Source: Tetraselmis striata (Eukaryota; Chlorophyta; Chlorodendrophyceae; Chlorodendrales; Chlorodendraceae). Taken from it: a stretch of DNA of 64,000 nt. The stretch is from the NCBI GenBank assembly GCA_006384855.1, contig VCJN01000570.1, positions 1 through 64,000 on the forward strand, read 5' to 3'. Made by a program: the position numbers and the translations under genes. Positions 17,575-64,000 of the stretch are shown piece after piece (positions within the stretch are counted from its first letter, which is position 1; each line of letters starts with the position of its first letter). The notes under the pieces were generated by a model, which had not been told where the DNA came from, did no database searches, and worked only from the letters and a program-made list of their open reading frames with translations.

Positions 17575-17590
17575 GATACTACTGTGTGTA
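17575..17590. repeat. Target-site duplication at the 3' side of the LINE
   Basis: GATACTACTGTGTGTA occurs here and again at 20676-20691, exactly flanking the LINE copy. A 16-base direct repeat at both ends marks a retrotransposition event. Confidence 0.9.
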
Positions 17591-20500: not shown

Positions 20501-20675
20501 GCCATCGAGGAATGGGGCAGAACCATTGGGGCTGCTGGACAACACCTCGCAAACGTCCACCGAAGCCTCAGGGAAAGTGAGGCGGTCCAACGAGAACGGG
20601 TCCGGGAGCGCGCAAGGAACAGGGTCCGGGGTCTGGGGATGCAAGCGAAGGAGCTCTTCGTGAAGCCGCGGGCCA
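17591..20675 (-). mobile_element. 5'-truncated non-LTR retrotransposon (LINE) with RT and restriction-like endonuclease domain
   Basis: The element lies between 16-base target-site duplications. It carries one open frame, stop at 17756, whose 991-codon extent begins at 20731 outside the element. The reverse transcriptase shows QLDAENAFNSF (near residue 208), GARQGCVLG (about 268) and FSDD (about 303). A CPCASC...H...C cysteine/histidine cluster starts near 742. A PD-(D/E)XK-like block follows from about 832: RPADVG, VAIDTT, and a Lys in HKIQKY. This order (RT, zinc knuckle, nuclease) is that of R2-type or related early-branching LINEs. Relative to the copies at 26.6-31.1 kb, about 850 bases with the N-terminal zinc fingers are missing. 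The RT and nuclease frame looks undamaged, so this insertion is fairly young. Confidence 0.88.
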
Positions 20676-20691
20676 GATACTACTGTGTGTA
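20676..20691. repeat. Target-site duplication at the 5' side of the LINE
   Basis: Second copy of GATACTACTGTGTGTA (compare 17575-17590). Just beyond it the LINE reading frame continues into flanking DNA on the minus strand as far as 20731. Confidence 0.9.
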
Positions 20692-21187
20692 TTCCTACTC
20701 TACGGGCGTGTGCGGCCCTATATACTACCATGGGTATGAGCAGGGGTTGCCCCTGCTGTCATCGCCCGTACGCTCGCTGGGCGGGCAGAGCGTATGTTAA
20801 AATAACATGTATATATATATGGTCGCTATCAGGTACATGAGCAATAGCTGCAAATTAAGTATAAATAACATATCACAGTCCTGGCATATAGGTACCTGTA
20901 CCAGCAGCAGGGCAGAGGTATTCTCTGGACGCTCTCCCTGTAACCAAAAAGTATATAGGGGTAGCACCTGGTAGCACCAGCCTGCTGGCACCCGGGGGCG
21001 GAAAAACACCCGCCTGACCGCGTCCCGCGCATCAACACGCAACTTCTTGTTCCGGCTGACTTAACGGGGCGGGCGCATCACCTTGTGCCAATTTGGACTA
21101 CAGCTCGCCCCCTACCTCAGCTGCTGCCACGTACCCCAGGAAAGACCCTGCGCTACCGCCGCTCAGTCGCTCGATTGCAGCAGCGGA
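20692..21187. other. Spacer and probable promoter/leader of the EGY2-like gene
   Basis: No repeats beyond short AT stretches (TATATATATAT near 20810) are visible. The AT stretch is too far from the ATG at 21188 to call a TATA box with confidence. Confidence 0.3.
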
Positions 21188-23821: not shown

Positions 23822-24159
23822 AATCGGAAATGTGGAGTGGCCAAATCACCAACAGAGCGACGCATCCCGCCATCGGCACCGCCGAGGCAAATTATGGCAC
23901 GAGCATAGCACATAGCAATTTTAGCGCTGATGTAAATCAAACATGGGGGCAACCATCCGGTAAGGCAATTAAGCATGGCTATTCGACGATCCAGAGTGAG
24001 TGCATGATGCATGACCAATGCACTCGCGACCGCCGCAGATGCTACTGCGATCGGATCAATGTACTGAGGCAAATAAATCTGTGGCGATAGCGGTATAGCA
24101 TAGGGAAAATTTAAAAATATCTACAAGTGACCAGCCGCAGCAGTCTGATGATGGATAAT

Positions 24160-25529
24160 GGTGTGAATTACAAAAAGGCCTCTTACAAATCCACCTATAC
24201 CGCTAAAACATTAACACAGCGAGTACAGGTAGTGTTGATCTTCCATACCGGGTGCGGGGTTAGCGGTGCGGGGGCTTGGCAGGTAAGTGCCTTTGTACTT
24301 ACCTGCTTACTTCAAGGAACTGCGCCTTGCCCGCAAAGGACGCCAGCTGCCGAGCTGGGAGCCAGCGCTTGTTGGAGGCTGCGCGGCCAAGGAGAGAGCG
24401 GGCGGCCTTGGCTAGCGCGATGAGCTTCTCCTCGGGGGCGCGGAACTCGCCGCGCTTCAGGTCGATGATCAGGCCCAGGTGAGGGCCGACATGGGTGGGC
24501 TCCCAGACTCCCTTGTTGGGGTTGCGCAGCAGGCCCAGGCGGTCCAGCACGGTGTTTCGCCTAATGTCCGAACGATATAACGTGAACTATCACGTTCGTT
24601 CGCCACATCCGCGAAAGATGCCTTTGATCTTCCAATTGGTCTTGCAGACGCTATCCCTGCAACAATTATCCGCCGCGCCTTGCCCTGCCCGTCACCCGCC
24701 TGGCGTCTCGCGGATCGACCCCCCCTTCCCCCCCCCCCCTTGCTTGCTGGGTGTCCTTGGAGACCTCTTCACGCTGCGGCCGTTATTCTTGGAGCTTCGC
24801 GCCTGCGACCGACCTGCGACGGACCGCGCCCGCCCCTGGGTTTCTGCGCGCGCCCGTTTTCTCCTGCGGCTCCCAGGTGCGCTGCCAGCCGCCCCTTTGG
24901 CCCGGCGACCCCCTTGCCAACCTCGCCGTGCTTGGTACGTGCACGGCGAGCCCCTTCTGCGCTCCTGGCGCCTGCCGGGCTGCTGGTGGCGCAGCACGTC
25001 CAGGCCCCAGCCCCTGGGGGCGCCCCGGCCCGTAGCACATTCCGCCTAGCGCGCCGCGGGGCGGCCGCCCCCGTGCGGACATGTACCCGTACCTGTGCCC
25101 GTACAACACGCCCCGCCTGGCGGCGCGTCATCGTCATGGTCGCCGTTTTCAGTACCAGTACCTGTACTTTTAGCAGTAGGTGGAACTCGCATTACTCGAA
25201 TGGGCCGACGCCCAAACGGGTAGGGCGGACCTTTCGTGGTCAGTGCCGGGTATTTTGATGGCAGTGTTTTAGACGGTGATCCAACAGTGTTGGAAATTCC
25301 GTCACTGGCCTCCAATTAGTATTGCGAAATGCTTCGGCAATTTGCTTGATGACTATAACGGAGCGTCGCCTACCCAGGGCTTTCCGTAACTGGATTGCTG
25401 CCTAAACGGCCGTCGTAGAGACGCTGCAAGGGTTTCACTGGTGCCAGTCCTGTCCCGGGGGCGAAAAAAACAAAAGGTGGATTTTTTACTGCCCTTTCTG
25501 TAATTCACACCAGTTTTGTAATTCACACC
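24160..25529. repeat. Candidate repeat unit bounded by inverted GGTGTGAATTAC ends
   Basis: The left end reads GGTGTGAATTACAAAAAGGC (24160-24179). The right end reads CTTTCTGTAATTCACACC (about 25494-25511), with a second copy TTTTGTAATTCACACC at 25514-25529. The ends are inverted relative to each other, as at the termini of a transposable element. The interior contains a DIRS-like fossil and a GC-rich block with a C run (about 24720-24740). I see no convincing target-site duplication, so unit identity is tentative. Confidence 0.45.
24299..24550 (-). mobile_element. Fragment of a DIRS-like retroelement reverse transcriptase (fossil)
   Basis: The minus strand encodes about 80 residues with HLGL-like (GPHLGLIIDL), RWLPARQLASFAGKAQ and related blocks typical of the part just after the RT core of DIRS-like tyrosine-recombinase retrotransposons. 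Only this piece is present; it looks broken and old. No ends or recombinase part are recognised. Confidence 0.45.
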
Positions 25530-25738
25530 AATACCTGTAGTGACATCGCGCGATCCCGCGCGTAGTGGTGTGGATTTATACAAAAGCGCAAGCAAGAGAC
25601 TACCGCCAAGTACAACGTGACGGGCAACTTGGGCTTCAATAAAGGTGCATGAAGCCCACGCGAGAATGGGCGCCGCCTCCGTCTTCATGTCTTGAGACTT
25701 GTGGAGTTAGCGGTGGAATCCATACCGCTGCGCGCGGG

Positions 25739-26205
25739 GAGTCATCACCGTGAAGTGCGGACCGACAGGCGAAGATAGGTGCCGTGAAGCTGCCTCGAAC
25801 GGTGCCGCGGGTGACTCAGGGATGCGCGCCGGCGGTGGTGTGGCTGCGGGGTTGGGCAGGGGAGCGGGTGTGGTTGGGGAAAGGGGGGCGGAGGGGTGCG
25901 GCTTGGACCATGGCGGGCGGCGCGCACGCGGAGTCATCACCGTGAAGTGCGGACCGACATGCGAAGATAGGTGTTGTGAAGCTGCCTGGGACGGTGCCGC
26001 GGGTGATTCGGGGATGCGCGCCGGCGGTGGTGTGGCTTCGGCGTTTGGGCAGGGGAGCGGGTGTGGTTGGGGAAAGGGGTGCGGCTTGGACCATGGCGGG
26101 CGGTGCGCATGCGGAGTCATCACCGTGAAGTGCGGACCGACGGGCGAAGATAGGTGTTGTGAAGCTGCCTCGGACGGTGCCGCGGGTGACTTGGGGATGG
26201 GACTG
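25739..26205. repeat. Three-copy tandem repeat, period about 185-192 bases
   Basis: GAGTCATCACCGTGAAGTGC starts copies at 25739, 25931 and 26114. Each continues with GGACCGAC, CGAAGATAGGTG, GTGAAGCTGCC and a G-rich TGTGGTTGGGG block. The array is open on the minus strand as a Pro/Ser/His repeat frame (about 180 residues), but the codons follow the DNA repeat and no protein family is evident. Confidence 0.85.
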
Positions 26206-26630
26206 GTACTGGTACTTCGATCAGTCCTCGTACCTCGTACCGGCACCGCCGCCAATAATGCTAACGACTACTAGCCTTCGTACTCGTACGGGTGCCCATT
26301 ATTTGGCAGCCCCCGTCCTTATTTGAGTACCAGTAGTACTCGCCCTTATACCGGTACCCCTACGGCCGTTGGTGCTCCCTAGTGCCGCTGGTACTAGTGT
26401 TGGTACCCGTACACCAGACGGCGCTCGCTTGGTTTCTCGTTCCGGTGGCAGAGTCTATGGGCCTTCCCCCCGCGGTCTCCACCCCCTTCGAGTCGTCAAA
26501 CCATAGCCAACCAACGTAGCCAACCATTGCTGACCACCGACCCTTGGTCGTCACTGCGATGCCCCCATTGCCCTCGAGCCCTCCTCCCGAGACCCCGCCT
26601 GCCCGGTGTTGCTATCACAAGGTGCTGGGC
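26206..26630. other. Spacer before the LINE inverted repeat
   Basis: Runs of GGTAC/GTACC-like short units (for example near 26340-26410) are the only pattern. No gene was recognised. Confidence 0.35.
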
Positions 26631-28588
26631 CGAGCCATCCTTCGACCCTCCATTGCGTCAGGTGTGCTCAGCCCTATCCACACGTGAATGATTTGCGGGC
26701 ACACATGACCTCCTCGCCGGCATGTTCAGCCGCCCGGCCGGCCGACGGATGTCCAGTTCGTGACGCAGATCGGCATTTGATGTCGGCGTGCCAGCGCTGC
26801 AGCTTGTGGTTCCATGCTTCCGGCCTTGGTCGGCACCTTCGGTCCCGTGCGGCGGGGCGGCCCAGCCGGCTTCCGTCCTTCTCCCTCGCTCCGGGGGTGG
26901 GCCGCATACCGCGGCGGGTTTGGGCGACATGCCTCCGGCGGCGCGCCAGTGTTTCGATCGTGGTGCCCGCGGCGGCGCCTCGCAACTTAATTTCTTTGAG
27001 TCGACTCTCATGTCCTTCCGGTATGCTACTTGCGCTTATTTATGAATGCCCTAAGTCCGTGGTTGCCTTGGTCAAACCCCACCATGACGCCGCCCTTACC
27101 TACGCTCTCTTGTTCAAGGGCCGCGCGAGCCAATCTGAGGCTGCCCATGATGCGTGGAGTGCCTACCTCTTGTTCTTCAGGTTGATATTGTGGCCCATGG
27201 CATACTCCTCGCCGGGGTCTTTACACCCCGACCCGGTGGCGGACTACCGCAACAACCGTTTATCGCATTGGGAGCGTGGCGACCTAGACACGTTGTTCGC
27301 CCTCGCGCGTTTGCATGCATCTGCTCGGGCTACTCCTCATGAATACGTGGCTCCGGCGTCGGCCAATTGTGGGGACCCACCGCCGGTTACCAAACGCCAA
27401 GCTGCTCGGGCCTCGGCCTTGGCTGCGGTGGGCGAGTACAGCTGCGCAGCTGCCGCCCTTCACTCGGTCCCGCTCGCGCCCGCTGGTCCGCGGCTTCACG
27501 ACGAGCTCCTCCGGTTGCATCCCCAGACCCAGTAACATGTTCCTTGCGCGCTCCCGGATCCATTCTCGTTGGACCGCCTCACTTTCCCCGAGTCTTCGGT
27601 GGACGTTTGCGAGGTGTTGTCCAGCAGCCCCAATGGTTCTGCCCCATTCCTCGATGGCATCCGCTTTGAGGCTCTCCGTGCCCTCTGCTCGCGCTCCCAC
27701 CTCCGTGGCATAGATGAGGCCATCGCGAATCCGGAGGTCCCTGCTAGCGTCGCCCATTTCCTTTCCTCCGCTACCTTGGTACCCCTATATAAGCTCACGC
27801 CGGCGGAGCGCAATGCGTTGGAACTTAGTGCTGGAGACGTGAAGGGGTCCGTTCGGCCCATTGGCATCGGCATCGTGCTCTTCATGTACGCTATGCGCAT
27901 CCTCTTGCGCGCTCATGGCGAACCCATCGCCCAATGGCTTGCCGCCCGCGGCCAGTTCGGTTTTGGCGTTAATGGTGGCGTGGAATTAGTTCAATTCCTT
28001 GTGCGATCTCTCCTAGACTCGGATCCATCCCTTCTCTTGGTGCAGCTTGACGCCGAGAATGCGTTCAATTCTTTCTACTATTCCGAAATGGTTCGCACAC
28101 TCCTCGAGGACCCTGTTTGGCAGCCTCTATTGCGTCCGGCGATCATGCTTTTGGTCAAGAGTCCAATCTGTACGTTTTCGACGGCTCCCAACCCAGTCCC
28201 TCTGTCCGGATTCTAAGCCGTGGAGGGGTCCGCCAGGGTTGCGTCCTCGGCCCCATCCTGTTCGCTAGCGCCGCTGCCCGAGTGTATGCTTGCATTGCCG
28301 CGGCTGCCCCCACTCACTCAGTGTTGGCAGCCTTCTCTAACGACGCCAATCTGGTCGGCACTGGTGACGGACTTGCGCTTGTTACGTGGGTGGCCCCGTC
28401 CGCTTTTGCCGCCGTTGGGTTAAGCGTCACCATTCGCAAACGACAGGCGTATTGTGAGCTTGGCTCTTCGTCCCCGTTCGGCGCCCTTCCTTATGGGCAT
28501 TTGTTGCATGGTGTTGCAGCCTCCTCGTCCGGAATCAAGGTGCTTGGTGCCCCTGTGGGCTCGGCCACTTTTGCCCGGATCCTGTTGG
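26631..28588 (+). mobile_element. LINE copy, left arm of a giant inverted repeat (3'-truncated, dead)
   Basis: This copy of the LINE at 17591-20675 includes the 5' part missing there. It starts with cysteine/histidine fingers (CVRCAQPYPHVNDLRAHM and CQRCSLWFHASGLGRH), as in R2-like elements, then a linker and the RT. It stops inside the RT/thumb region at 28588, so it has no nuclease. The frame carries a stop (CAG TAA near 27531), a one-base loss in CATGCTTTTGG near 28147, and FSND in place of FSDD at the catalytic box, so it cannot work. A four-base TTTA near 27028 is absent from the right arm. Confidence 0.85.
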
Positions 28589-31069
28589 GCGCCAACGTTG
28601 GGGTGGCCAAAGCCTGGTGAATCGAGGACGCCCCAACAAGGTAGAGGCTATGAGGGTTGGATACGCCTGGCGGCCTGGAAAGGAACGCGCCGGTGTCGCT
28701 TAGGGTATGTAGCGTGTTGAGCACGGAGGAAAGTCACAGCTTGGCCAACCACAAGGGCGGCAGCGTCGATGTGGGAGGCAGCTACAATAACCACATTATC
28801 GCCGATACCGAAGCCCCCAAATTGGACCGGGAGGGACAGTTCCGTGCTCATGGAGGGCGTATCCAAGAGGTGGGGGCTAACAACCCAAATGACGGCGAGC
28901 GCTGAAAAGGCGTCGCCGTCTGCATCTTCAAGGAAGGACGTAATAGTACCGTCATACCCCTCGGAGCGACAAAAGCCCCGAGGCGTGGAGCGGAGGTGGT
29001 GGCCGAAACGACGGCCGCAAACTTGCAGCAAACGAGTAGTAGTGTGGGAGTGGAAGTGGTCGGCCAAACCAATAAGCCGGGAGCCAAATTGGTGAATTTT
29101 TTGTGACCGATTTGTCCAACAGGATCCGGGCAAAAGTGGCCGAGCCCACAGGGGCACCAAGCACCTTGATTCCGGACGAGGAGGCTGCAACACCATGCAA
29201 CAAATGCCCATAAGGAAGGGCGCCGAACGGGGACGAAGAGCCAAGCTCACAATACGCCTGTCGTTTGCGAATGGTGACGCTTAACCCAACGGCGGCAAAA
29301 GCGGACGGGGCCACCCACGTAACAAGCGCAAGTCCGTCACCAGTGCCGACCAGATTGGCGTCGTTAGAGAAGGCTGCCAACACTGAGTGAGTGGGGGCAG
29401 CCGCGGCAATGCAATCATACACTCGGGCAGCGGCGCTAGCGAACAGGATGGGGCCGAGGACGCAACCCTGGCGGACCCCTCCACGGCTTAGAATCCGGAC
29501 AGAGGGACTGGGTTGGGAGCCGTCGAAAACGTACATATTGGACTCTTGACCAAAAGCATGATCGCCGGACGCAATAGAGGCTGCCAAACAGGGTCCTCGA
29601 GGAGTGTGCGAACCATTTCGGAATAGTAGAAAGAATTGAACGCATTCTCGGCGTCAAGCTGCACCAAAAGAAGGGATGGATCCGAGTCTAGGAGAGATCG
29701 CACAAGGAATTGAACTAATTCCACGCCACCATTAACGCCAAAACCGAACTGGCCGCGGGCGGCAAGCCATTGGGCGATGGGTTCGCCATGAGCGCGCAAG
29801 AGGATGCGCATAGCGTACATGAAGAGCACGATGCCGATGCCAATGGGCCGAACGGACCCCTTCACGTCTCCAGCACTAAGTTCCAACGCATTGCGCTCCG
29901 CCGGCGTGAGCTTATATAGGGGTACCGAGGTAGCGGAGGAAAGGAAATGGGCGACGCTAGCAGGGACCTCCGGATTCGCGATGGCCTCATCTATGCCACG
30001 GAGGTGGGAGCGCGAGCAGAGGGCACGGAGAGCCTCAAAGCGGATGCCATCGAGGAATGGGGCAGAACCATTGGGGCTGTTGGACAACACCTCGCAAACG
30101 TCCACCGAAGACTCGGGGAAAGTGAGGCGGTCCAACGAGAACGGATCCGGGAGCGCGCAAGGAACATGTTACTGGGTCTGGGGATGCAACCGGAGGAGCT
30201 CGTCGTGAAGCCGCGGACCAGCGGGCGCGAGCGGGACCGAGTGAAGGGCGGCAGCTGCGCAGCTGTACTCGCCCACCGCAGCCAAGGCCGAGGCCCGAGC
30301 AGCTTGGCGTTTGGTAACCGGCGGTGGGTCCCCACAATTGGCCGACGCCGGAGCCACGTATTCATGAGGAGTAGCCCGAGCAGATGCATGCAAACGCGCG
30401 AGGGCGAACAACATGTCTAGGTCGCCACGCTCCCAATGCGATAAACGGTTGTTGCGGTAGTCCGCCACCGGGTCGGGGTGTAAAGACCCCGGCGAGGAGT
30501 ATGCCATGGGCCGCAATATCAACCTGAAGAACAAGAGGTAGGCACTCCACGCATCATGGGCAGCCTCAGATTGGCTCGCGCGGCCCTTGAACAAGAGAGC
30601 GTAGGTAAGGGCGGCGTCATGGTGGGGTTTGACCAAGGCAACCACGGACTTAGGGCATTCATAAGCGCAAGTAGCATACCGGAAGGACATGAGAGTCGAC
30701 TCAAAGAAATTAAGTTGCGAGGCGCCGCCGCGGGCACCACGATCGAAACACTGGCGCGCCGCCGGAGGCATGTCGCCCAAACCCGCCGCGGTGTGCGGCC
30801 CACCCCCGGAGCGAGGGAGAAGGACGGAAGCCGGCTGGGCCGCCCCGCCGCACGGGACCGAAGGTGCCGACCAAGGCCGGAAGCATGGAACCACAAGCTG
30901 CAGCGCTGGCACGCCGACATCAAATGCCGATCTGCGTCACGAACTGGACATCCGTCGGCCGGCCGGGCGGCTGAACATGCCGGCGAGGAGGTCATGTGTG
31001 CCCGCAAATCATTCACGTGTGGATAGGGCTGAGCACACCTGACGCAATGGAGGGTCGAAGGATGGCTCG
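28589..31069 (-). mobile_element. LINE copy, right arm of a giant inverted repeat (3'-truncated, dead)
   Basis: Reverse-complement partner of the left arm. Positions pair as roughly i with 57704 minus i near the centre and 57700 minus i at the outer ends. The copy extends about 527 bases further 3' in element terms (28589-29115), which forms the spacer between the arms. It shares with the left arm the early stop, the one-base loss and the FSND substitution, but differs at around ten other places I noticed. It too ends before the nuclease domain. Zinc fingers lie near 31010-30850 on the minus strand. Confidence 0.85.
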
Positions 31070-31430
31070 GCACATCACCCTCCATAGCCATTGCGAGGAC
31101 AGCCATTGCGAGGATAGCCATGAAATAGCGTGCACATGGTGTGCTAGGGCCAATGCGACGGCGCGCGCGTCGCATGGCATGCGGCCCTATTATTGTAACA
31201 AGTGTTGCACGGCCGGGTTGTGAACGGTTTGAGCGCATGGCACGCCGACATTTGCACATAAAGAACCGTGTTTTTTCTCCAATGGTCGCCGAGATACATG
31301 TGTTGGCCACCTACCCCATGCCGCGCGGCGCCTAGTTTGGAGTCTATGGTCAGCTAGCGGGCTGCATGCGACATTCACGAACAGCTGTTCGCCATGCAAG
31401 AAGCAATAATACTGCAATCACATTTTAATT
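31070..31430. other. Flank of the LINE inverted repeat
   Basis: Tandem TAGCCATTGCGAGGA units (about 31084-31122) directly abut the LINE arm and let the zinc-finger frame run on upstream. The remainder has no recognisable feature. Confidence 0.4.
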
Positions 31431-49475: not shown

Positions 49476-50084
49476 GTAATGTATATAATCAACCTGGGGG
49501 TATTTATTTCGCGCGTGGCGCGCTCGGCGGCAGTATGTAGTGGTTGTTCGCGGCATAGTGCGGTACCCGGACTTGCGGTAGCGGTGGGGGTGATTATGTA
49601 GCGACTATTTATTCATTGCGCTGGTGGATTTTATTAACATTGGGGCTTTGTCAATTATATATCCGTCAAAAAATACAATCGTCGCAGGATACGGTCTCGC
49701 TAGTACACGCCGCGCACGCAACGACGGGCGGCGGACGTGAATGAAGAGCCTCCATGCCAAGGCGAGCCCTCGTGGTAGCGAGGAGCTCTCAGTCCCCGGT
49801 AGACAAGCAGACTGCATAGCACCAGAGGGATGAATCTCAGGTGCTCGCGCTAGAGAGCGCGTGGTACAGGTGCAGCTGCTGTTGCTAACGTTCGCCATCA
49901 GGCGGCCGCGCCCGCGGACTATAAAGTACTCCCGCGGCGTTACCTACGGGAGTACAGCGTAACGTACGATACGGAGGAAGTCGGGCCGCCTGTGGAAGTA
50001 GGGGCACCGTCGGAGCGGCGTGGGGGGAGGCGCCCCGCGAGCTTAGTAGGGGGGTGGCGCCTTGCCCAGCCACCACGAGGCATC
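49476..50084. other. Upstream region of the Pmp-like/U-box gene
   Basis: No gene was recognised. It should hold the promoter of the gene starting at 50085, but I cannot identify a TATA box or other element with confidence. Confidence 0.35.
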
Positions 50085-53000
50085 ATGCAACCTCGTCTCT
50101 GGGCGGTGCTGCTGGCGGCGGCGGTGGTGCTGCAGGCGGGCGCGTACGCAGGTGAGGCCGCCCAACGGGCGCTGCATGCCGCCGCTCGTCCGCCGGGGGG
50201 CGGACCCACATGCGGGACGCTGCACGGCGGCGCGGGGCTGTGCGGTGGCCTCCCCTGCGCCATGCCTGCGCGTATTATCCTCCCTGCTGCACAAGCGACT
50301 GAGCGGCGTGGGCGGCAGGAAGTCATTTCAGAGCCGGTAGAGGGCCACATGCCGAGGGAAACGCCACCCAGCATGGGTAGCTTTCAGAAGGGCGGTTGTT
50401 TTGGTGGTGGTGGGGAGGAAGTGGGGGGGGGGGGGGGGGAGGGGGGGGTTCCCTGGTAGGCTGGACACTGGACGCTGTCTGGTCGAGACAGGTACACGGC
50501 GAAGTGGTGCTGAGCTTCAGACGATGGGATTGGTGTAGTGAGCTGGATGGTGCGGTAGCGACACGCCCCGGCTCCAGACCCTTCGGCAAGCGTCAGAACC
50601 CCGGATTTGGGCAGGGAGCTTGCTTATCAGGATGGGGGCGAGGGGAGCAGCCATAGGAGAGGAGTGGTTGCCGTCATATAGCGCTCCAGGCCTACCAGGC
50701 GATGGCTGCCTCTCACTTCTCGCTGTTGATGTGGTCTGCACGCAGTCGACGTGAGCACAGAGGGGGGGCTGCGGGAGGCGATCGCGACGGCGGGCGTCGC
50801 GGAGGTGGTTGTGCGGGAGGACCTGGTGCTCAATGGTGCGCCGTCCCTCACATCTTTTGCCCCGCCCTCAGCCCTCCACCCGCCCCCACTGCCGCCTGAT
50901 CCGCAACTGGACTGGCATTGACCCGCAGCCCCCCCCCCCCCCCCCCCCCCCTCTCCAAAGGCACTGCCCCCATCAGTGTGTCGCGCGCAGTCAGAGTACG
51001 CGGCGCCTGCGGGCCGCAGGGCACCGCTGCCTGCGAGGTCTCGCTGCACCTGGCGCTGTCGCGCCTCTTCACCATCCTGGACGGCGGTGCGCTGACTCTG
51101 AGCCAGCTCGTCATCGAGGGCGGCCGCACGCGCACCTCCAATGCGGACACCTCCAATAGCGCCAAGGGCGGCGCCATTCTGGGCCGCGCCGGCGCCATCC
51201 TCCACATGTCCGACGTCACACTGCGCGACAACATCGCCTCGGTGAGCGCCCCCTCATTCCACCCTGTCCCCAGCCAGCGCGGCTTTTGCCCCCCCCTCCC
51301 TCCCGCCTCCTCAGCGTTTCCCCTCCTGAGCCGCGCCATGGCGCCCCCACCCACAGGACGGCGGCGCGGTCTACCTAAACAACGCGCAACTCGCCACCTT
51401 CACGCGCTGCGCCTTCTCCGCCAACCGCGCCACCGGCGAGCTGACGGACCTCACCGGCTACGGCGGTGCGCTGGCTGTGTGGGACACTGCTATCGAGATC
51501 GCTAGCTGCCAGTTTCAGGGGAACTTCGCCAAGCAGGTGCGCGCGCATGCAAGCTTGCCCTCCCCCCCCCTTTCTTCTCCCCCCCTCCCCCTCTCTTCCT
51601 CCTGTCTCCAGCTTCAAGAAAGCAGGCATCGCTTTTGCGTTTGTAGCGCCCTCCCCTCCTGTCCCTTTCCCCTCAGCAAAGCCCCTAAAGGAAGCGAATG
51701 CCCTCAAAAAACAAAGAATACCCCAAACACATACACATCCGCCGAGATGCAGCTATATACTCATTCATTGGGGCAATGTGCACGGGGTCATTAAGCTAGA
51801 TCGCACATTTAGGATTATTGTCTGGCCACTTAAATCCAAGTTCAGGCTTATCGATCAGTCTAGCTCTGTCATGAAAGCCGCAGCAATTCTTTATGCCTGA
51901 CCCTTGCCCCCGCAAACTAAGGTTGCATCTGCCTGCGTGGAGGCTGGGGTTCGTATTTAGGTTTATCCGGGAAAGGTGTTGACATCCCACTGATGTGTTG
52001 ATATGCCTGTGGGTTGGTACCTGCCCTCATCTCCTGATGCCGCCTGCTCCCCGTTTTGCAGTACGGTGGTGCGGTGGCGATGCTGCATACGTCAGAGGTA
52101 TCCGTGGTGGACTCCATCTTCGAGGACAACACCGCCGCCGACAAGGACGGAGGCGCCATCTTCACCGAGCGCGACATCAAGCTCACCGGCCTGGAGTCCT
52201 CCCGGTTTGCGCGCAACACCGCGGGGCGCAACGGTGGCGCAATCTTTTACTCCAACAACCCCGCAGAGCTCAGCCTCAGCGTCCTTGCCTTCGAGGGCAA
52301 CTCTGCTGTGCGCGGAGGCGCGCTCTACGTCACCTTTGTGAGCTGCCCTCCGCGCCCAATCTGCCCCCTTGCTTGCTCAGCGTTCCCTGATTGGGTGCAT
52401 CGCACAGCCTGTGCCGCAACCACACAGCGTTGCCGTGCCCTGATGATGCAACATGGTTGATGCGTAGTTTTTCCACCACCCAGTTGGCCCATCCCCTCGC
52501 CAGCGGCGCCATGTTGTGCGTGACCCTGCGCCTCCTGCCCCCCTGGCGCGCCCTTGCAGGCTCGCCTGGTCGTGGAGCGCACCGGCTTTGTGGAGAACAC
52601 GGCCAGCGAGCAGGGCGGCGCCGTGTACACAAATGTCAGGCCCATCAGCAGCAACGCCGCCATCTTCACCTCGTGCAACTTTGAGTCCAACACGGCCAAG
52701 ACGGGCGGCGCGCTGTATGGCGGCAACACTCGCGCTCAGTTCACCCTCTCGGTGACGCCACCTTCCACTCGCTCCTCCCTGCGCTCTCTGCTCGGAATAT
52801 GCGCATGCCTGGACCACATTGTGGTGTCTTTGGGTGAACATATGCCTGTTGGGGAGATTGGACGCTTAGCATCTGACACACTTAACTCTGCACGTCGTTC
52901 AGGTTGTCACCTTTGAGCTCAACAAGGCCACGGCGGGCTCCGGCGGTGCCATCCGGCTCATGGGCTCCGCCTCCAGCATGACGTGCGCCAGCTGCAACTT

Positions 53001-56000
53001 CCGCGAGAACTACGCCACGGTGCGGTGCTCGCATCTGGTCCTGCCCGCTTCCGTTTCTGCGGCGCAACGCGTACATGCTAAAATTAGGGCCACATCAACC
53101 TATGCGTGTAGTCATACTCTATCATCAGCGTGTCGGTGTGATTTTTTCATTGTCACCACCACTGCCTTGTCACTACAGGTGCCGACTAATGCATAGGAGG
53201 CACGCTATTACTGGCCTGAACTTTGGCTTGCATGCAGCCTAGGAGACATTTATTCTGCTATGGCCTCGTCTATGTTAGCCATTTGGCAGGCAGTGTGGGT
53301 TCTTATTAGCGCATCGGCACGCGTTGCGTCTCTACGCTCTAGATGACACTTGCGATCACTGCGCGGATCCCGGACTGCCCCCTTGTTTTATCCTGGCTTG
53401 TGCGGTCGCCCGTTGCAGACCAATGGCGCGGGCATTGCGCTGACGGACGGCGTGGACGCGGGTCTACACACCACTGTGATGGGCAGCAACGTGGCGAGCG
53501 AGACCGGCGCGGGCGGGGCAATCTACCTGGCAGGGATCAACACGCGCGCGGCGCTGGTGGACTGCGTCGTGCAGTACAACCGCGCGGGCCGCGGCGGCGG
53601 CATCGCTGCGTTCAACCAGCCCACGCTGACGATCGCCAACTCGTACGTGGAGGACAACACCGCCAATGACTACGGCGGCGCGCTCTCGCTCGCGCAGCTG
53701 TCCTCGGCGCAGCTGCACAACGTGCGCGTGAGCTACAACTTTGCGCGCGTTGAGGGCGGCGCGCTGCACGTCGCCTCGGGTGGGCAGCTGGTGGTGTCGG
53801 GGAGCACTTTCTACCGCAACAGCGCAAACCAGGGCTCGATCGGAACCACATTTACCAACGCCACCGCCGGCGGCGTGCTGGCGCTCAACGCGGGCGGCGT
53901 GCTCAAGACGTCAGCCTGGTTGTTCTCAAGCCAGTTTCGCGAGAACGACGCCGACCACGGCGGCGTGCTGCACACCACGTGGGACAACCACCTGCAGGTG
54001 GAGAACTGCTCCTTCATTGACAACATTGCGCACCAGCACGGCGGCGCCGTCTACCTCACCGAGTTCGGCAGCCACATCTTCAAGAACTCCACTTTCACCG
54101 TGAACAAGGCCACCTTTGGCAACGGCGGCGCGGTAGTCATGGAGGACAACTCGGCGGTGGTCCGTGCCCCCCCTCACCCCCCCCCCCCCCCCCCCCCCCC
54201 CGCTCCCTCGATTCGCGTATGCACCCGGACCACGCACATCCTGTTAAAACCCCTGAACGGTATAACATCATCCCCAGGGGGCGGCGCCAAGTTTCCCTTC
54301 TTGTGTAGCGCAACCAAGCTCTGCGTTCGCTAATTGTTGTTGTTTTTGACACCCCCCCCCCCCCCCCCCCCCCCCCCCGCCCGGGCCTCAAAAAGAGACG
54401 AAATCTATACTCATCAGGAAATCCATCAGAGTAAAACCCGAATACAGCACGGACTCACCGATTCGATGTGCCAAACAGTTCACTACTTTTCCGACCCGCG
54501 AACCCATTTCAATTTTATACGACATGGACTAAAAATGGACTTCCAACTATAACGATTGTGCATTTGGGTGCAGGCAAGCTTCGAGAGCTGCCTCTTTGAC
54601 CGCAACCAGGCCGCGCTCACGGGCGGCGCGGTCTACATGAATTCCACCGCCAACCTGGACTCGGAATTCACCAACAACCGCTGCCTCGGCTCCAACGGGA
54701 CCTTCTACATCTGCGCTGCGGATGTGGACATGCAGGGCGGCACAGCCTACATCAGGGACATTGACAACGTGATGGTCACCAACGGTGGGTACTGGCTCCG
54801 GACAGTCCTTGCTGAGAAAGCGCACAGTGTTTTCTCTTGCATTTGTCACATAATAATTGTTATGGAATATTGATACCCGTAATAACCTCAGGCATATCGG
54901 ACCGCTGACACAAGCTCTATGATTATGAATGTACATCGGTACTGAGAATCACATGTTATTGGGAGCATACATACGGAAGCTTTTGTCAAGAAGTGTCTCA
55001 GAGTTTGATTTGCATAGGCGCTTCTTTTTCTGGACGAGCATATATCGCTGGCGCGCAGGCAGCATGTCGTGTCTCCATACAGTACAGCTACAGGTAAATG
55101 TAGTACTTATGTGACTTGTCATTGCGCTCGTGTTGTATAAGGATTATATGCGATATAACAAATTCGGCCGAGGCACTAGCTAGCGCGTAGCAGTCCCGTG
55201 CTGATGGATCCCGCGATGATGTGTAAATAAATGAAGTGATGATATTATCATATGCGCTGACAGGAGTAATCCTTACCAGGATGCGACTAGTATAATATGC
55301 GCGGACGCCAGCGATATATACACTCGTCCACATAATCGTTGTATATATACACTTATCCATATGAATACGTCATATTATCGTCGTGGGGGTGGTTGCAAGG
55401 AACACATGGCCAGCAGGCGGGCCTGGGCGGTGCCGGTCAGCGCGGGCGCCAGCAGCCGGGCCAGCGCGGAGGAGCTCCATGGATGTTTGGCATGGGCGGC
55501 AGTCACTAGAGATGGCGGCAGGACAGGTCTGCCTCAGTGGTAACACTACATCTATAAATGAATCATGTCTCTGTAATGCATCCCCCCCCCCCCCCCCCCC
55601 CCCCCGCCCCTGTTCATTGTAGGGGTGGACTCATAATAGGGTGTTTGTTTCACAGCCTTGCTCTAGGAATTCCGGGAGGGGGGGTCGCTATTTCGTACTC
55701 GAGTCCTCCGCCGGAGTACCCTCTGCGAGGGAGGCCTGCTTTTGTTGACTCTGACATCGCTCGCCACTGTGTGGCCTGCCCTGAACGAGCAGCGACCGAG
55801 GTGGAGTTTGCCTACTGCTGGCCCGTCACTTGCGTCGCCGACCTCTTCAGCCTCTCGTACTCGCAGTGCCCGCTGTCGCTCATGCCGGACGACGGCGGCG
55901 TGTGCGGCGAATTCCCCGTGTTTGCCGGCGTGACGGCCACGCTGGCGGTGGAGCGGTGGTGGGAGAACCCGCGCAACTGCGGCGAGGCCAAGAGCTGCCC

Positions 56001-56046
56001 CTCGCCGCTCCTGCTGAGCCAAGACACCTGCAGCGACCCCTGCCCC

Positions 56047-56078
<32 letters not shown>

Positions 56079-59000
56079 TCCTACGCCCATCCCGGGCCCC
56101 ACGCCGACCGCCACGCCGACCGCCACACCCATCGCGACACCGCCCGCGCAGACAGCTGGCCCGGCGCCGACGCCTGCGCCGGAGCCCACCGCGACGCCCA
56201 CCCCCACCGAGACGCCGGAGCCGACGCCCACCTTCACGCTGGGTCCCATCTTCGGCGAGCGCCTCTCGACGCTCTGGCGCTTCCGCTCCACCAGCGGCTC
56301 CTCCTTCAACGGCGGCTTTTTCCAGCAATTTGGGCTATACCTGTTCGACCTCGCCGGCGCCGAGGCTTTCTCGGACTACTACTGCGAGGGCGACCCGCTC
56401 CCGGCGGCCAACGTCACGCTGGAGCTGTCGCCCGCGCCGGGCGGCGCCGACTGGACGCTCGACCCCTCCGACTGGGCGGACGCGCCCAGCACCCCCGGCG
56501 CGGTGATCCCACTCCCGACCGCCACCCCGGCCGCCACCGCCACCGCCGCCGTCGACAACCCCATCGACTCCAACGACAACAGCACCGCCACGCCGATGTC
56601 GACGTCGACTGCCATGGCGACGGCGGCGCCCGGCAGCCCGGTGGGGCCGCCGCCGCTGTCCGACTGCCTGTACGGGGTGGACAAGCCGGCCGGCAACGCT
56701 TGCCGCTGGTTCACTTACGAGCCCCCTCAGGGCGGCTCCGCGGTGGTGTTCCGCCTCCCCGAGCCAATCGAGCTGCGCTGCGTGCGCTTCGCGGTGCCAT
56801 CCGGCGAGGTGGATGCTCCGCGGCGCTTCCCGCGCGACGGCGTGCTGGAGTATAGCCCCGATGGGCTGGGCGACATCTGGGAGGGCGCGGTGGTGTTTGA
56901 GTCGATCGACCAGGAGATGCTGGCGGTGAAGGAGCTCAGCGCGCGCGCCCCCGACCCGCCGCCCAGCCCCAGCCCACCGCCCAGCCCGCCCTCGCCGCCG
57001 TCCCCGCCGCCGTCCCCGCCGCCCAGCCCGCCGCCGTCCTCGCCGCCGCCGCCCCCCGCCGCGCTGTTGGTATCGTGGGTGCTGCCCGTGGCGCCGCCGT
57101 TTGCGGTCGCGGCCGGCTTCCCCGCCGTCTTTGGCTGGTCCGCTGCCGCCGGCTACCCGCTGGATGGCCTCACCGCGGAGGTGAGCCTGTTGCTGGCGGC
57201 CGCCGACGGCAACGAGAGCATCGTCCTGACATTCGACCCAGTCCCCCTCGGCGGCAGCCTGCTCTCGGTGGACCTACCAGCCGACCTGGCGCCCGGCCAC
57301 GACTACCGCCTCCTGCTCAAGGTACGGGCCACCGCGGGTTTGATCTCCCCCAAGTTCAAACCCCTCCTGTGGACTCCCCCCCCACAGATCCCACAACTTT
57401 GGCGTTGCGCCCTCCTACGCCTTACGGCAACCTTACGCAGCGAGCACCAGAGCAACTACCAAATAATACGCAAACCACTGTATACGTATGCCGAATATAC
57501 GTGAACGATGTGCAGATGTCCTCATACTGGGAAACTTAACGAGTTGTACAATGGCACTTTTTGAAACACATATGTTTCTCACAACCTTTTGAAGCTGAAT
57601 TTTTTTAGCCTTTGATTAATCTTTCAGCACCAGTGATGCATTGGTTTAACGCCCAGGAGCTCGAGCTTGATTAAAAATCCATTCGTTAGCAGCAACTTCC
57701 GTAGTTTCTGCCTCCTGACTACGCGCCCACTATGCGGGGCGTCTTGTGTTTGTTGTCGCAGGTGAGCGACAGCGCTGCCGCCCTCCCCGACGGTGTGATC
57801 CCGGATGCGCTGGCCGTCGAGGGGCTGCGCAGCGTGCTGATGAGTGTGCTGGAGGTGAGCGGCGAGCTGTCGGGCGGCGTGATTGCGACGCTGCGTTACG
57901 AGTCGGAGCCGCCGGAGGATCCGGCCGCGTTCCTGGCCGCCGTGAGCGAGGACGTGGGCACCGCGCTGGGCGTCGGCACCGACCGCTACGCCATTCTGGG
58001 CTACCGCTTGGGCAGCGTGCTGGTGGACGTGCTGTTCCTGCCGCCGGCGTCCGGCGCCTCGGCGGCGACGCCCACCGCGGCGCAGCTCGCGCGAGAGCTT
58101 GAGGCGCAGTCCGTCAACCCGACGAGCGCCCTGCGTACGCGCGGCCAGCTCGGTGGGGCGCTCGCCGATGGCGGCGTGGAGCTGAACATCCCGCCGCTAC
58201 CAGCCCCCGACGCCCCGCCCGCGGTCCCCGATGGTATCGTTACTTTCTCGGACGAGTTGTTGATTTTCGCGGGCGCCGCGGTGCTTCTCGAGATCCTGGT
58301 CATGCTCGTCGCGTGGCCCGTCAATCGCTACGCGCGCGCCGTTCAGCTCGCCACCGTCGCGTCGGCCACCACAAGCACACGGCCGGCCGACGACCGCGCG
58401 GGCGTGCTCGCCGGCGCAGTACGCTCCCTCAAGCTGCCGGCGGGCACGCCGCTTATGCTCGGCCCGCCACCGCGCTACAACTCCCTCTTCTCGGCGCCGC
58501 TCAGCGCGGCGCAGTTCATCGCGTTCGCCGTGTACCTCGCGCTGGTGGTCGGCCCCCGCTCCGACAGCTACCCCGCCTACCTCATCGCCGGCGCCGCCTC
58601 GCTCGCCTGCTGCTTCGTCGGCAATGCCGCCGGGGGCGCCGCGACTCTCGTCGCCGCGCAGACAGCGCTGGACGACTGGGACCGCGCCGCCTTTGCCTCG
58701 TGGTTTGCGGGCCACCGCGCCCTCACGCTCGGTACCGTGTCGCTCAGCCCCTTCCTCGGCACCTCGCTCGACATCTTCCTGCTACTCGGCTCCTATATTA
58801 GCCCCACACTGGCCGCGCCATGGGGCCAGGCCAACTACAACCGCTTGCTCGCAGCCGCCATTGGCGTCGACCTGATCACGCAGTCCATTCCGCAGGTGCG
58901 AGCGCGCTCACAACCAGCCGGGGGGCACGTCCGATCGCAGCAGTCTGCGACATGCGATATATACACATGATACATTGCTTATAGCATATGCTGTTTCCCA

Positions 59001-60568
59001 GCTGCCTGCATATTAGCCCGGCAGACAGCAATTGTACACATTTTCTACTGTGTCATGTAGCATTTGTGGATCGTAGCGGCAGTACTGAGCAGATGGCATG
59101 TCGTCTCTGCAGGTGGTGATCATCCTGCTGCTAGCGGTGGAGGACGAGAGCTCCTGGCAGCTGAGCAGCAAGGCGGCACTGCTGCTGGCCTTTGTCGGCG
59201 TGGCGCACAACCTGGGCAGCAAGCTGGTGCACTACGTCACGGAGCTGACGTCGGGCGGCACGCGCGTCAACCCGCGCAAGGACGTGATAGGCGACGGGCT
59301 GACCAACCTGGTGGAGGAGCACAAGTTTGAGGACCCCGACAAGGACATCATACCCGAGCATGACGGCGCCTATCTTGCCGACGACCTCACGCCCGAGCAC
59401 TATGTCTGCCCCATGTCTGGCCTGGTATGAACCTCCACACCACCACCACCACCATCTTGTTTTCCTACCCAGGATGCTAACTACATGGAGGGTGCATGGG
59501 GTTCAAAGTGTTGCATCTACAAGCGCCGCCACATGTCACTTGCAGTATACATATGACCCGCGGTTCCCCCTGATGGATGTCGATGTCGGCAGTGCAGCCA
59601 ATCAATAACCTAGCCAGGGTATTACACACGTCATCGCCGCTGACTTTGCTGCCCTGTCCCCTGACGCCGGCCCACGCAGATTATGCAAGACCCGGTCACG
59701 TTTGCGGACGGCCACACCTACGACCGCGCCGCGCTGGTGCACCACCTGGAGGAGCACGGCGGCGTGATGACGTCCCCGCTGACCGGCGCCAGCCTGCCCA
59801 ACACCAAGTTTGTGCCCAACACCGGCCTCGCGCTGGCCATCAAGTCGTATCTGCAGCGCACGGACCGCCCGCTCACCAAGCACATGAACCCCGGCAGTGC
59901 GCGCCCCGCCCTCCTCTCCTTGCTGCCTGCACGCAGCGCATGAGTGGACACGCATGGCTGCCAACTTGCTTATTAGCTGCCCTTGCAATCATTTGAGCCA
60001 ACTGCGGATGCTAACTACTCTCAATGATTCCCGCTTACGTCAGGGGTCTCATTTCGCGGCCTCAAAAACACTGATAGCTGTTTTGTTTTCCGCAACCACA
60101 ATTTACGCTTCCTGTTATAAGTATGAGACATGTGTTATCTATATATACTATATAGTGTATATATATGATTGTTGCCGTTCTTGACCCCACCAACAAAGAT
60201 ATTAAACTACATGTATCTGCAAATATATCAGAATAAAGCGCGAACATGGCACGGAATTCCGACTCGGTGGTTTATATTTTTCGTCGCTGAAAACAGCTCG
60301 TCCGGGCTTTACTCGCAACCCCGCTTTGTCCATGTTAGGGCACGCTGTGGTTACTCGGGGTAACCTTTGCACACTTGCCCCATTAACACCCACCGCGCTG
60401 CTTCTCCACCACCCGCAGCCATCCATGACATGTTGCATGCAGGCGTGCTGACGGTGGTTGCTGTGTCGCCCCAACTGTGCAGCCGTCCGACAGACAGCCA
60501 TGCTGGAGGGCGTCCCGGGGCAAGCCAACCAGAGCCCCGAGCCGGCTCTGCCCACCCTGACGCAGTGA
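50085..60568 (+). CDS. Pmp-like beta-helix surface protein with membrane segments and C-terminal U-box
   Basis: Fourteen exons: 50085-50151, 50746-50835, 50961-51241, 51357-51536, 52062-52337, 52560-52751, 52903-53019, 53419-54159, 54574-54784, 55667-57321, 57762-58895, 59113-59424, 59680-59896, 60483-60568. The frame is continuous for 1852 residues. Residues 1-22 are a signal peptide. About 90-720 hold some 20 GGA(I/L/V) and FxxN motifs (GGAIYL, FEDNTA, FESNTA), the signature of chlamydial polymorphic membrane proteins, expected to fold as a beta-helix. A Cys-rich part precedes a PTPAPTP linker (about 843-910), a possible discoidin-like part (about 1050-1145) and an SPPP tract (about 1148-1183). 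Hydrophobic segments lie near 1435-1456, 1517-1534, 1542-1561, 1589-1613 and 1631-1680. A U-box (CPMSGLIMQDPV, GHTYDRAAL, PNTGLALAI) follows at about 1744-1810. An E3 ligase at the membrane with an outside sensor is inferred. The last exon is less certain: reading through gives a stop at 59943. Confidence 0.85.
50929..50960 (+). promoter_or_regulatory. C-run polypyrimidine tract before exon 3 of the U-box gene
   Basis: About 22 C followed by TCTCCAAAG lead directly to the acceptor of exon 3. Here the homopolymer could serve as the polypyrimidine tract. This is inference from position. Confidence 0.5.
54160..54573 (+). repeat. Intron 8 of the U-box gene with two C homopolymers
   Basis: Two runs of more than 20 C (about 54177-54200 and 54352-54378) lie in one 414-base intron, neither next to the acceptor. 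Their position argues against a simple polypyrimidine-tract role in this intron. Confidence 0.85.
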
Positions 60569-62125: not shown

Positions 62126-64000
62126 TCACCACTCGCCGCTGCTTTCGGTCGTCCAGCTGGAGTCGTCGCTCCACTCCCGGGCGTTGTCGCCCCTGGAGCT
62201 GCCGCTGTGCCCGAGGGCAGTCAAGGTCACCGGCGCCACCGACGCCACGACGCGGCCAGACGGCAGCCGCTGCGCGAGCTGGGCGATCGCGCCTGCAGTC
62301 ACCTGCGGTACAAACCCCCATATTATACATACAGAATGAGAACGGTCAGTCTTGGCACGCACCATCAGGTGCACTGCACTCCGCACTCTGCAAAGAGAAG
62401 GGAGGTAAAACAGCGCCCCAGAGGAAGGCCGGCGCCTTCGCCCTGAGCGGCGCGGGGGGCTCGGACACCCACCCACCACCGTGCACTCCACGCGGCAGCC
62501 TACCTTGGGGCACCATTTGAGGTCCAGGCGGCGCAGGCGGGCGAGGGCGTGCAGATGCGCCGTCCCAACGTCCGTCAGCTCGTGGCAGCCGCTGAGCCTG
62601 AGCTCCCGCAGGTGGGCGGCCAGCGGCGCCAGCTTTTGCAGAGCGTCGTCGTCGAGGGACGTGCAGCGGCTCAGGTTGAGGCTGGTGAGGGCGGCGCAGT
62701 CCGGGTTGCAGCGCGGCAGCGCCAGGGCGCTGAGCCCACGGGCTGTGACTCGGTCGCACTCTGTGAGGTTGAGGGCGCGTAGCGCCGGCAGCTGCACCAA
62801 CAGCCGCAGCGCGGCGTCGCACACCAGGCTGCACTCCTGCAGGCTGAGCTCCTCCAGGGCGAGCAGGTAGCCGGCGCAGCGCAGGCCGGCCGCGGAGACC
62901 TGGCTGCACCCGCGCAGGCTGAGCCGCCGCAGGGCCGTCAGTTGCGCCAGGTGCTGCATGCCTCGGTCGGTCACGCGGTCCAGGCCGCGCAGGTTGAGGT
63001 GCGTGAGCCGGCGCATGGCAGCCAGCGCCTGCAGCCCGCCGTCCGACACCTGCGGGGCACCCACCGGCACATGCGGCTGCGCGCGTGAGAGAGGTGTCCG
63101 CCGGGTGCAAGAGGCTGCACCCTTGTAAGGCCTCGACACTTTGCCTCCCCTTCGGCAACCACGCTTTGGGTTTGCTATATGTCACCGTGTTTGACCTCTT
63201 CACCGAACATAGGAATCACTGTACACTTTTTTATTAATCAAAAATAATATTCGGCCTCCCACCTGGCAGCTGGCCAGGTTGAGCTGCTCCAGCTGCGAGA
63301 GCGCAGCGAGGGGGCGCAGGCCGGCGTCGGAGATCTGGGTGCACCAGGCGAGGCTGAGGCTGCGCAGGCCGGTGAGGGCGCACAGCTGCGCCACGGCGTG
63401 GTCCGTGGCGGACTGGCACCAGGAGAGGTCGAGCCGCGTGAGCGCCGGCATCGCCGCGAGCTGCGCGAGGTGGCGCTCCGTCAGGAGGGCCTCGCTGAGG
63501 GAGACGTCCGCCAGTGCCGGCATGGCCGCCAGCGGGGCCAGGGACTCCACCTCCACCTCCTGCAGGTGCAGCAGGCGCAGCGCGGGGAGGCCTGCCAGCG
63601 CCGCCAGCCCCCGCTGGGACAAATTGGGACACCAGCCCAGGCGCAGCGCCGTCAAGCTGGGCACCCTGGCCAGCGCCAGGAGGCTGCTGTCCGTCACCTG
63701 ACGGCAGCCAGGAGGGCAGGGGAAATTTGCATGCGGGAAGAGAGGAGCAGCAGCAGAGATGGCCCGTGGCAGAGGCAGCCCCGCAGCAGCGGAAGGCGAC
63801 TCCTGCCCATTTGTACCGCCGCCGCGTCTGCCACCCCATCAACCTGTCCCACTATCAGGTCCTGCTACCCAGCCATCAGCGGCTATGGGCAGGCCACATG
63901 ACGCACCTGGCTGCAGTACGACAAGTCCAGCCGGCTGAGCTGCGTGAGGGCCACCACCGCGCTCAGGTCCTCCACCCCCTCGCACCCGCTCAGGCTCAGG
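62126..64000 (-). CDS. Leucine-rich repeat protein of the cysteine-containing (AMN1/FBXL) type, 5' end missing
   Basis: The exons are 64000-63907 (partial), 63697-63263, 63049-62504 and 62302-62126. They join in phase 0 at GT-AG junctions and end in TGA, giving 417 complete codons including the stop. Repeats of about 25 residues read LxxLxLxxCxx(V/L)(T/S)DxGL, for example LRELRLSGCHELTDVG and LRSLSLAWCTQISDAGL. This is the cysteine-containing LRR subtype of F-box FBXL and AMN1 proteins. No F-box is seen, but the N-terminus lies outside the window. The last exon is Ser/Trp/Asp-rich (REWSDDSSW). Such proteins bind other proteins through the concave LRR face; a substrate-adaptor role is possible, not shown. 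Three of the four exons start with GTG followed by Thr, Ser or Asp, so introns cut the repeats at the same point. Confidence 0.88.

Follow-up and report, generated by a model that had tools for sequence, protein, structure and literature searches.

ZNRF3 and RNF43 are outside-in ubiquitin ligases with an ectodomain, and the PUB and CHIP U-box ligases are soluble proteins with other partner domains. The PA-TM-RING ligases RNF13, RNF128/GRAIL and RNF130/Goliath consist of a PA domain, a transmembrane domain and a RING-H2 domain (PMC4021871). Fibrocystin/polyductin (PKHD1) has a parallel β-helix ectodomain with a SEA domain and a membrane helix, its cytosolic tail being linked via NDFIP2 to E3 ligases (SMURF1, SMURF2, NEDD4) (PMC13424714). 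Here we describe a putative gene of the green alga Tetraselmis striata, rebuilt from sequence, that appears to carry a β-helix of the chlamydial Pmp type at one end and a U-box at the other. It lies on the plus strand at positions 50085–60568 of the window, by which we mean the whole analyzed stretch of 64,000 nucleotides (positions 1–64000 of contig C448, in a 224 Mb genome of 2903 contigs). From the sequence, we consider it quite probable that one gene runs from β-helix to U-box, because exons 1–9 have a second copy in the genome, exon 11 has a relative, codon usage follows the exons, and introns 11 and 12 cut through segments of the protein.

The original prediction, a model's reading of the letters, had claimed one uninterrupted spliced frame from a signal peptide to a U-box, and this was borne out. 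The gene has 14 exons and 13 introns, all GT-AG, with consistent phases and a sole stop codon at its end (60566–60568). The single frame encodes 1857 amino acids as first modelled, and 1810–1811 with a better-scoring exon 9/10 junction. Third-position GC is 0.82–0.93 across the 14 exons, and overall GC of the introns is 0.49–0.73. A chance open frame was excluded, as none of 2000 mononucleotide shuffles of the coding sequence stayed open.

A Pfam scan of the whole protein matched three families. Chlam_PMP (PF02415) scored 79.5 bits (E = 3.8e-23; curated cut-off 20.6), Beta_helix 60.3 bits (2.3e-16, also above its curated cut-off) and the U-box 45.0 bits against a cut-off of 21.4 (1.2e-11), the last at residues 1747–1817 and spanning positions 2–70 of the 73 in the profile; the Chlam_PMP and U-box search suggested in the original prediction had thus placed both families above their curated cut-offs. 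In exon 8, the NCBIfam model POMP_repeat (TIGR01376) matched as well (34.9 bits vs. a cut-off of 15, 8.3e-9). Within the ectodomain (residues 23–740), the motif GG[AVG][ILVAF] was counted 22 times and FxxN 16 times, whereas 1000 shuffles gave means of 1.3 and 2.4, respectively, and a maximum of 8 for either motif. The spacing is mostly ~27 residues, and the roughly 20 GGA(I/L/V)/FxxN repeats claimed earlier stand far above shuffled sequence. These profiles support a right-handed β-helix of the Pmp/POMP type for the N-terminal ~700 residues. With matches allowed at E up to 1, the scan showed neither an autotransporter β-barrel nor any further Pmp domain, and the label 'chlamydial Pmp-like' accordingly holds for the repeats and not for the rest of the protein; neither a PA domain nor a RING was among the families matched. 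When the linkers, Ig-like segment, juxtamembrane domain and helices were scanned as pieces, nothing rose above a Pfam cut-off, PT-TG at E = 0.12 being under its own. Among PDB sequences, the ectodomain matched one, 7w5z_U2, a 'Transmembrane protein, putative' (2.5e-5), and the U-box region matched 11 distinct entries, with PUB12 best (5.1e-7) and CHIP lower in the ranking. The idea of a misread RING was rejected on the Pfam profile and these PDB matches; the domain has a single cysteine (C1752) and hence no C3HC4 set.

The first nine exons could be compared with a second copy, C904:1–5700, which is ~96% identical to window 49689–55207 and is read as the other haplotype. Exon 1 (50085–50151) holds the start codon and the signal peptide MQPRLWAVLLAAAVVLQAGAYA, called from the hydropathy of the N-terminus, and differs in C904 by two bases and one amino acid. 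Exon 2 (50746–50835), an N-terminal portion of the β-helix region, exon 3 (50961–51241), with the first Pmp-type coils, and exon 7 (52903–53019), with later ones, are identical in the two copies. Pmp-type coils also fill exons 4 (51357–51536), 5 (52062–52337, with the best Chlam_PMP stretch at residues 223–242) and 6 (52560–52751), all likewise compared with C904. Exon 8 (53419–54159), with nine GG motifs and the matches to Beta_helix (PF13229) and POMP_repeat, has four substitutions in 741 bases. The last coils are in exon 9 (54574–54784), which has a preferred phase 1 donor at 54784 and an alternative phase 2 donor at 54788, both intact in C904. In total, exons 1–9 show 17 substitutions and no gaps over 2159 aligned bases. 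Thirteen of these substitutions are synonymous, and the other four lie in three codons whose amino acid is replaced. Introns 1–8, by comparison, have 115 substitutions over 2497 aligned bases and 54 gap columns as well. Because the exons are gap-free and little changed while these introns diverge, exons 1–9 and their borders are real and constrained.

Downstream of the coils, exon 10 (55793–57321, with alternative starts at 55790 and 55656) encodes a Cys-rich segment, a Pro/Thr linker, further segments, an SPPP linker and the start of an Ig-like segment, its fold assigned by eye. Exon 11 (57762–58895) encodes a juxtamembrane domain that looks SEA-like by eye, helix 1 (residues ~1440–1462), a basic loop and more hydrophobic segments. 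Exon 12 (59113–59424) adds the last hydrophobic segments, an acidic linker and the first part of the U-box (CPMSGL), and exon 13 (59680–59896) the remainder (IMQDPV...GHTYDR...SPLTG...VPN). These motifs and the above-cut-off profile agree with the canonical U-box that had been claimed, and the Pro/Thr linkers (residues ~850–915), the SPPP linker (~1153–1186) and several hydrophobic segments are likewise present in the rebuilt protein. The weakly supported exon 14 (60483–60568) contributes a C-terminal tail and the stop; reading through exon 13 would reach a stop by 59943, past the U-box. Exons 11–13 are tied together because intron 11 splits a hydrophobic segment and intron 12 splits the U-box between CPMSGL and IMQDPV.

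Among proteins predicted from public reads, exon 11 has two relatives, P0001 (99% identical) and P0002 (~80%). The similarity to P0002 spans exon 11 and stops at SIPQ, which is the modelled donor, confirming the 3′ border. At the other end, the predicted start of P0002 coincides with the exon 11 start and cannot test the 5′ border, where codon usage changes from −18.7 over the 19 codons before the acceptor to +77.8 over the opening 78 codons of the exon. In the searches made, exon 11 had no relatives among viral contigs, exon 8 none among bacterial and archaeal genomes, and the exon 4–7 coils none among phage records.

The weakest link of the gene model is intron 9 (54785–55792 with the preferred borders). 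As first modelled, exon 10 began at 55656, with ~45 opening codons that are not coding-like; codon log-odds up to 55950 are −7.9 from 55656 vs. +37.7 from 55793. The pairing of donor 54784 (before GT) with the AG ahead of 55793 (or 55790) preserves the frame too, at a much better score, so the overall frame of the earlier exon model was kept and its exon 10 start was rejected and replaced. At this intron the locus might instead divide into two adjacent genes, one for a secreted Pmp-type β-helix protein (exons 1–9) and one for a multi-pass U-box protein (exons 10–14 or 11–14), which we judge unlikely. Intron 9 is the longest of the gene (867 or 1008 bases, depending on the border chosen) and among the AT-richest (GC 0.49). 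TGTAA is the green-algal poly-A signal, and the intron holds it at 55222 and 55572; three TGTAA in the 12 kb scanned, however, do not exceed chance expectation by a rough estimate from base composition. The AATAAA/ATTAAA pattern is matched at 55226 in the intron and again in intron 10 (57670). A GC-rich island (~55385–55510), in which an ATG lies near 55408, might represent a small additional exon or the beginning of a further gene, but at ~+7 per 30 codons it matches the best score in an intron without any exon-like stretch, against +20 to +34 in exon 8. The C904 copy stops within intron 9, at the point matching 55207, with ~208 extra bases there. Yet reading through exon 9 past 54788 gives six substitutions and one gap in 82 bases vs. 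C904 and codon log-odds of −34.5, so this read-through is not conserved as a coding end. Exons 10 and 11 also have no coding signal ahead of their preferred acceptors: in exon 10 it sets in near 55790, ahead of the first in-frame ATG of the exon (~55882), and the frame of the exon traced back to an ATG at 55558 scores −57.2. An N-out domain in exon 11 would moreover require an upstream signal peptide, and Pmp coils, a Pro-rich linker, a helix and a kinase co-occur at another locus of this genome, C2869. Several results nevertheless count against a single gene. With C904 ending in intron 9, the join between the Pmp part and exon 10 is left on a single contig, and both copies have the same first ~50 bases immediately downstream of the exon 9 donor. 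A proposed further Pmp coil at the opening of the first-modelled exon 10 failed its test (669 of 2000 shuffles as good), as did a comparison of the post-coil Cys-rich piece with a C2869 segment (BLASTP E = 12; 319 of 5000 shuffles as good). P0001 and P0002 have intron-like tails, resembling unspliced genomic DNA; a search that scored 7999 candidates yielded no relative of 1021–3250 residues, and one over 8000 yielded no spliced relative for the C-terminal part, its third match being an ankyrin/U-box protein similar over 13% of the query. The Cys-rich pieces of exon 10 and C2869 have only CWPxxC in common, a post hoc observation, and a genome search with the exon 10 segment returned itself plus one match at E = 4.7. 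No second copy of exons 10–14 was found in the genome search, and the 10 kb of C904 compared show no similarity to the window beyond 49689, ~400 bases upstream of the start codon.

If the gene is one, the side on which its U-box lies depends on the number of membrane helices. We used a home-made topology model (ΔG parameters, a simple positive-inside bonus, N-out fixed) at five hand-chosen settings, for which the best helix counts were 3, 3 or 5 (equal), 5, 5 and 7, odd in every setting. Helix 1 is strong (ΔG −0.94) and the remaining helices are marginal (1.4 and above); the hydrophobicity of the exon 11 segments is slightly higher in P0002 than in the window protein. Residues 1418–1432 before helix 1 contain no K/R and residues 1460–1515 after it contain seven, and because the positive charges follow the helix, the orientation would be N-out, as the signal peptide explains. 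The hydrophobic N-terminus and the charge rule agree on a putative N-out ectodomain, and the model favors a β-helix outside and a U-box in the cytosol, so that an outside-in arrangement is likely. A U-box on the same side as the β-helix, for instance after six helices, or a protein of an inner membrane, either way not answering to the outside, seems quite improbable to us. Kyte-Doolittle peaks are readable as six helices, with the fourth weak, and 13 D/E vs. 5 K/R lie in the 55 residues past the last hydrophobic segment. Over the five settings, a six-helix model ranges from 2.3 units worse than a five-helix one to 0.1 better, the latter in a setting where seven is best. U-boxes work in the cytosol, and the best even count loses to the best odd one in all five settings, albeit by just 0.2 to 1.6 units. 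The odd helix numbers lean, by these small margins, to the arrangement of the original prediction. A further reading accepts a cytosolic U-box and takes the ectodomain for a plain adhesin or wall component, the ligase serving self-turnover or quality control. Pmp repeats are adhesive in bacteria and membrane E3 ligases usually auto-ubiquitinate, but a nearly full-length U-box and the Pmp-coil kinase cousin fit signalling at least equally. This reading, not very likely in our view, shares its first five steps with the explanation that we prefer, so their odds overlap.

The explanation to which we lean is that of a surface membrane protein that would bring a U-box ligase close to, or under the control of, whatever its β-helix binds. 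The signal peptide and the 14 exons would yield a single chain of ~1810–1857 residues that enters the secretory pathway, a step strongly supported by the reconstruction. Its ~700 N-terminal residues would fold as the β-helix that the profiles support, and the Cys-rich segment, proline-rich linkers and juxtamembrane domain, judging from their sequence type, may keep it at a distance from the cell surface. The chain would then reach the cytosol through membrane helices of odd number, the favored outcome, and would end there in the nearly full-length U-box (profile positions 2–70 of 73). Contact of the β-helix with a partner, matrix or microbe might cluster or relocate the protein, and the E2-loaded U-box might then ubiquitinate itself or nearby membrane proteins, setting their turnover. 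Transmembrane RING ligases that bear an ectodomain act in this way.

Parts of this protein seem to recur in the same genome. Pfam searches made exon by exon across the genome overlook even the coils of the window itself, so the numbers of relatives given here are lower bounds. Matches to the Pmp part lie on C904 and on C95 (31% over ~225 residues, E = 5.4e-8), with a weak one on C2869 (E = 0.0014). At C95:233000–242900 there are open frames of kelch-like (by eye), Pmp-coil (Chlam_PMP 4.6e-6) and Cys-rich CPAG type. On the minus strand of C2869:104000–113900, one open frame combines Beta_helix (2e-9) and Chlam_PMP (1.4e-8); the next holds coils and a Pro-rich linker, seen by eye and without a Pfam match; the following one has what looks by eye like a membrane helix, together with a PK_Tyr_Ser-Thr kinase domain (PF07714, 2.6e-21) that is completed in a fourth. 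Read from these separate frames, C2869 is likely a Pmp-type receptor kinase.

Three loci, C1728:194000–203900, C1081:1–7500 and C1732:22000–31900, have β-helix matches of another type, as well as open frames in which SPPP linkers are long. Two of them, C1728 and C1081, are almost the same in sequence, possibly a single locus present twice, and show by eye a juxtamembrane domain, one helix and a short basic tail; in the frames listed for C1732 only the juxtamembrane domain was recognized, also by eye. One juxtamembrane domain of this group is 34% identical over 70 residues to that of exon 11 (E = 1e-4, a single pair). By eye, these surface proteins recall the TMEM2/fibrocystin group. A layout of ectodomain, proline linker, juxtamembrane domain and helix seems to recur in the genome, and the U-box protein seems to fit it. 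Of the 14 β-helix matches, five on C941 and one on C2442 were inspected as open frames and left out of this comparison, and three on C2001 were dropped, the contig reading as bacterial. By eye, the frames at C2001:85000–105900 are long, free of introns and bacterial in appearance, and the contig is probably bacterial contamination of the assembly.

The U-box form itself was found once in the genome. For the exon 11–12 membrane region there was no paralogue among 50 scored candidates, and the 32 matches at E = 0.01 comprised three of its own exons and 29 on or about the U-box. The best U-box match in the genome is on the same contig, 58 kb away (C448:118084–118296), and appears by eye to be of the UFD2/UBE4 type; within the 3.2 kb compared there, the U-box alone matches the C-terminal part of the protein described here.

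The Pmp-coil kinase gene suggests that one swappable type of ectodomain sits on differing cytosolic effectors, and there may be a modular set of surface receptors with the U-box protein among its members. We tentatively propose a receptor class of the algal lineage in which a Pmp-like β-helix is mounted on interchangeable effectors, kinase or U-box, and adhesion or sensing outside would steer ubiquitination inside. The original prediction had spoken of a plausible new receptor class; the C2869 gene makes a modular class more plausible, and with the U-box form found once, the class as such is still conjectural. How surface contact is coupled to internal responses is poorly known in unicellular algae, which are said to lack many of the receptor families present in land plants and animals. 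If the proposal is right, a ubiquitin ligase fused in cis to an adhesin fold of bacterial type, together with its kinase counterpart in the same genome, would form a concrete candidate receptor set.

Elsewhere in the window, a gene of leucine-rich-repeat type (AMN1-like by eye) adjoins the U-box gene on the minus strand (62126–63838), and long open frames on both strands of 17463–31310 have near-identical stretches in common and are, by eye, probably retroelement copies. The genome search also returned 63 matches to the chlorophyll a/b-binding family, which mark the genome as that of a photosynthetic eukaryote.

How, then, does the window protein compare with known systems? No description of a Pmp repeat joined to a U-box was found in the open-access literature searched. 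The original prediction had considered the joining of Pmp-like repeats and a U-box across a membrane to be undescribed; outside-in ubiquitin ligases are known in principle, as the PA-TM-RING proteins demonstrate, and it is the Pmp/U-box combination that appears new. Like PA-TM-RING proteins and ZNRF3/RNF43, the window protein is predicted to have a signal peptide, an ectodomain, a membrane helix and an E3 domain beyond the membrane. Where PA-TM-RING proteins have PA, transmembrane and RING-H2 domains, however, it has a Pmp-type β-helix, several hydrophobic segments and a U-box, and membership was ruled out on the absence of PA and RING from the Pfam scan and on its several hydrophobic segments. 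With the chlamydial Pmp autotransporters (PF02415/TIGR01376) it shares the GGA(I/L/V) and FxxN coils, passing both curated cut-offs, but it has introns, a predicted signal peptide and predicted membrane helices, and membership of that family was ruled out since the barrel was sought by Pfam and not found. The U-box is common to plant PUB and animal CHIP ligases and the window protein, which differs in its hydrophobic membrane segments. The C2869 gene resembles the window gene in its Pmp coils, Pro-rich linker, membrane helix (by eye) and effector domain of cytosolic type; it has a PK_Tyr_Ser-Thr kinase and one helix where the window gene has a U-box and several hydrophobic segments. Fibrocystin shares with the window protein a parallel β-helix ectodomain, a SEA domain (SEA-like by eye here) and a membrane helix. 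The β-helix of fibrocystin is of another type, with IPT and G8 domains, and its ligase acts in trans, whereas the U-box would be fused in cis here. The window protein is thus a possible cis counterpart to fibrocystin, a β-helix receptor tied to E3 ligases in trans.

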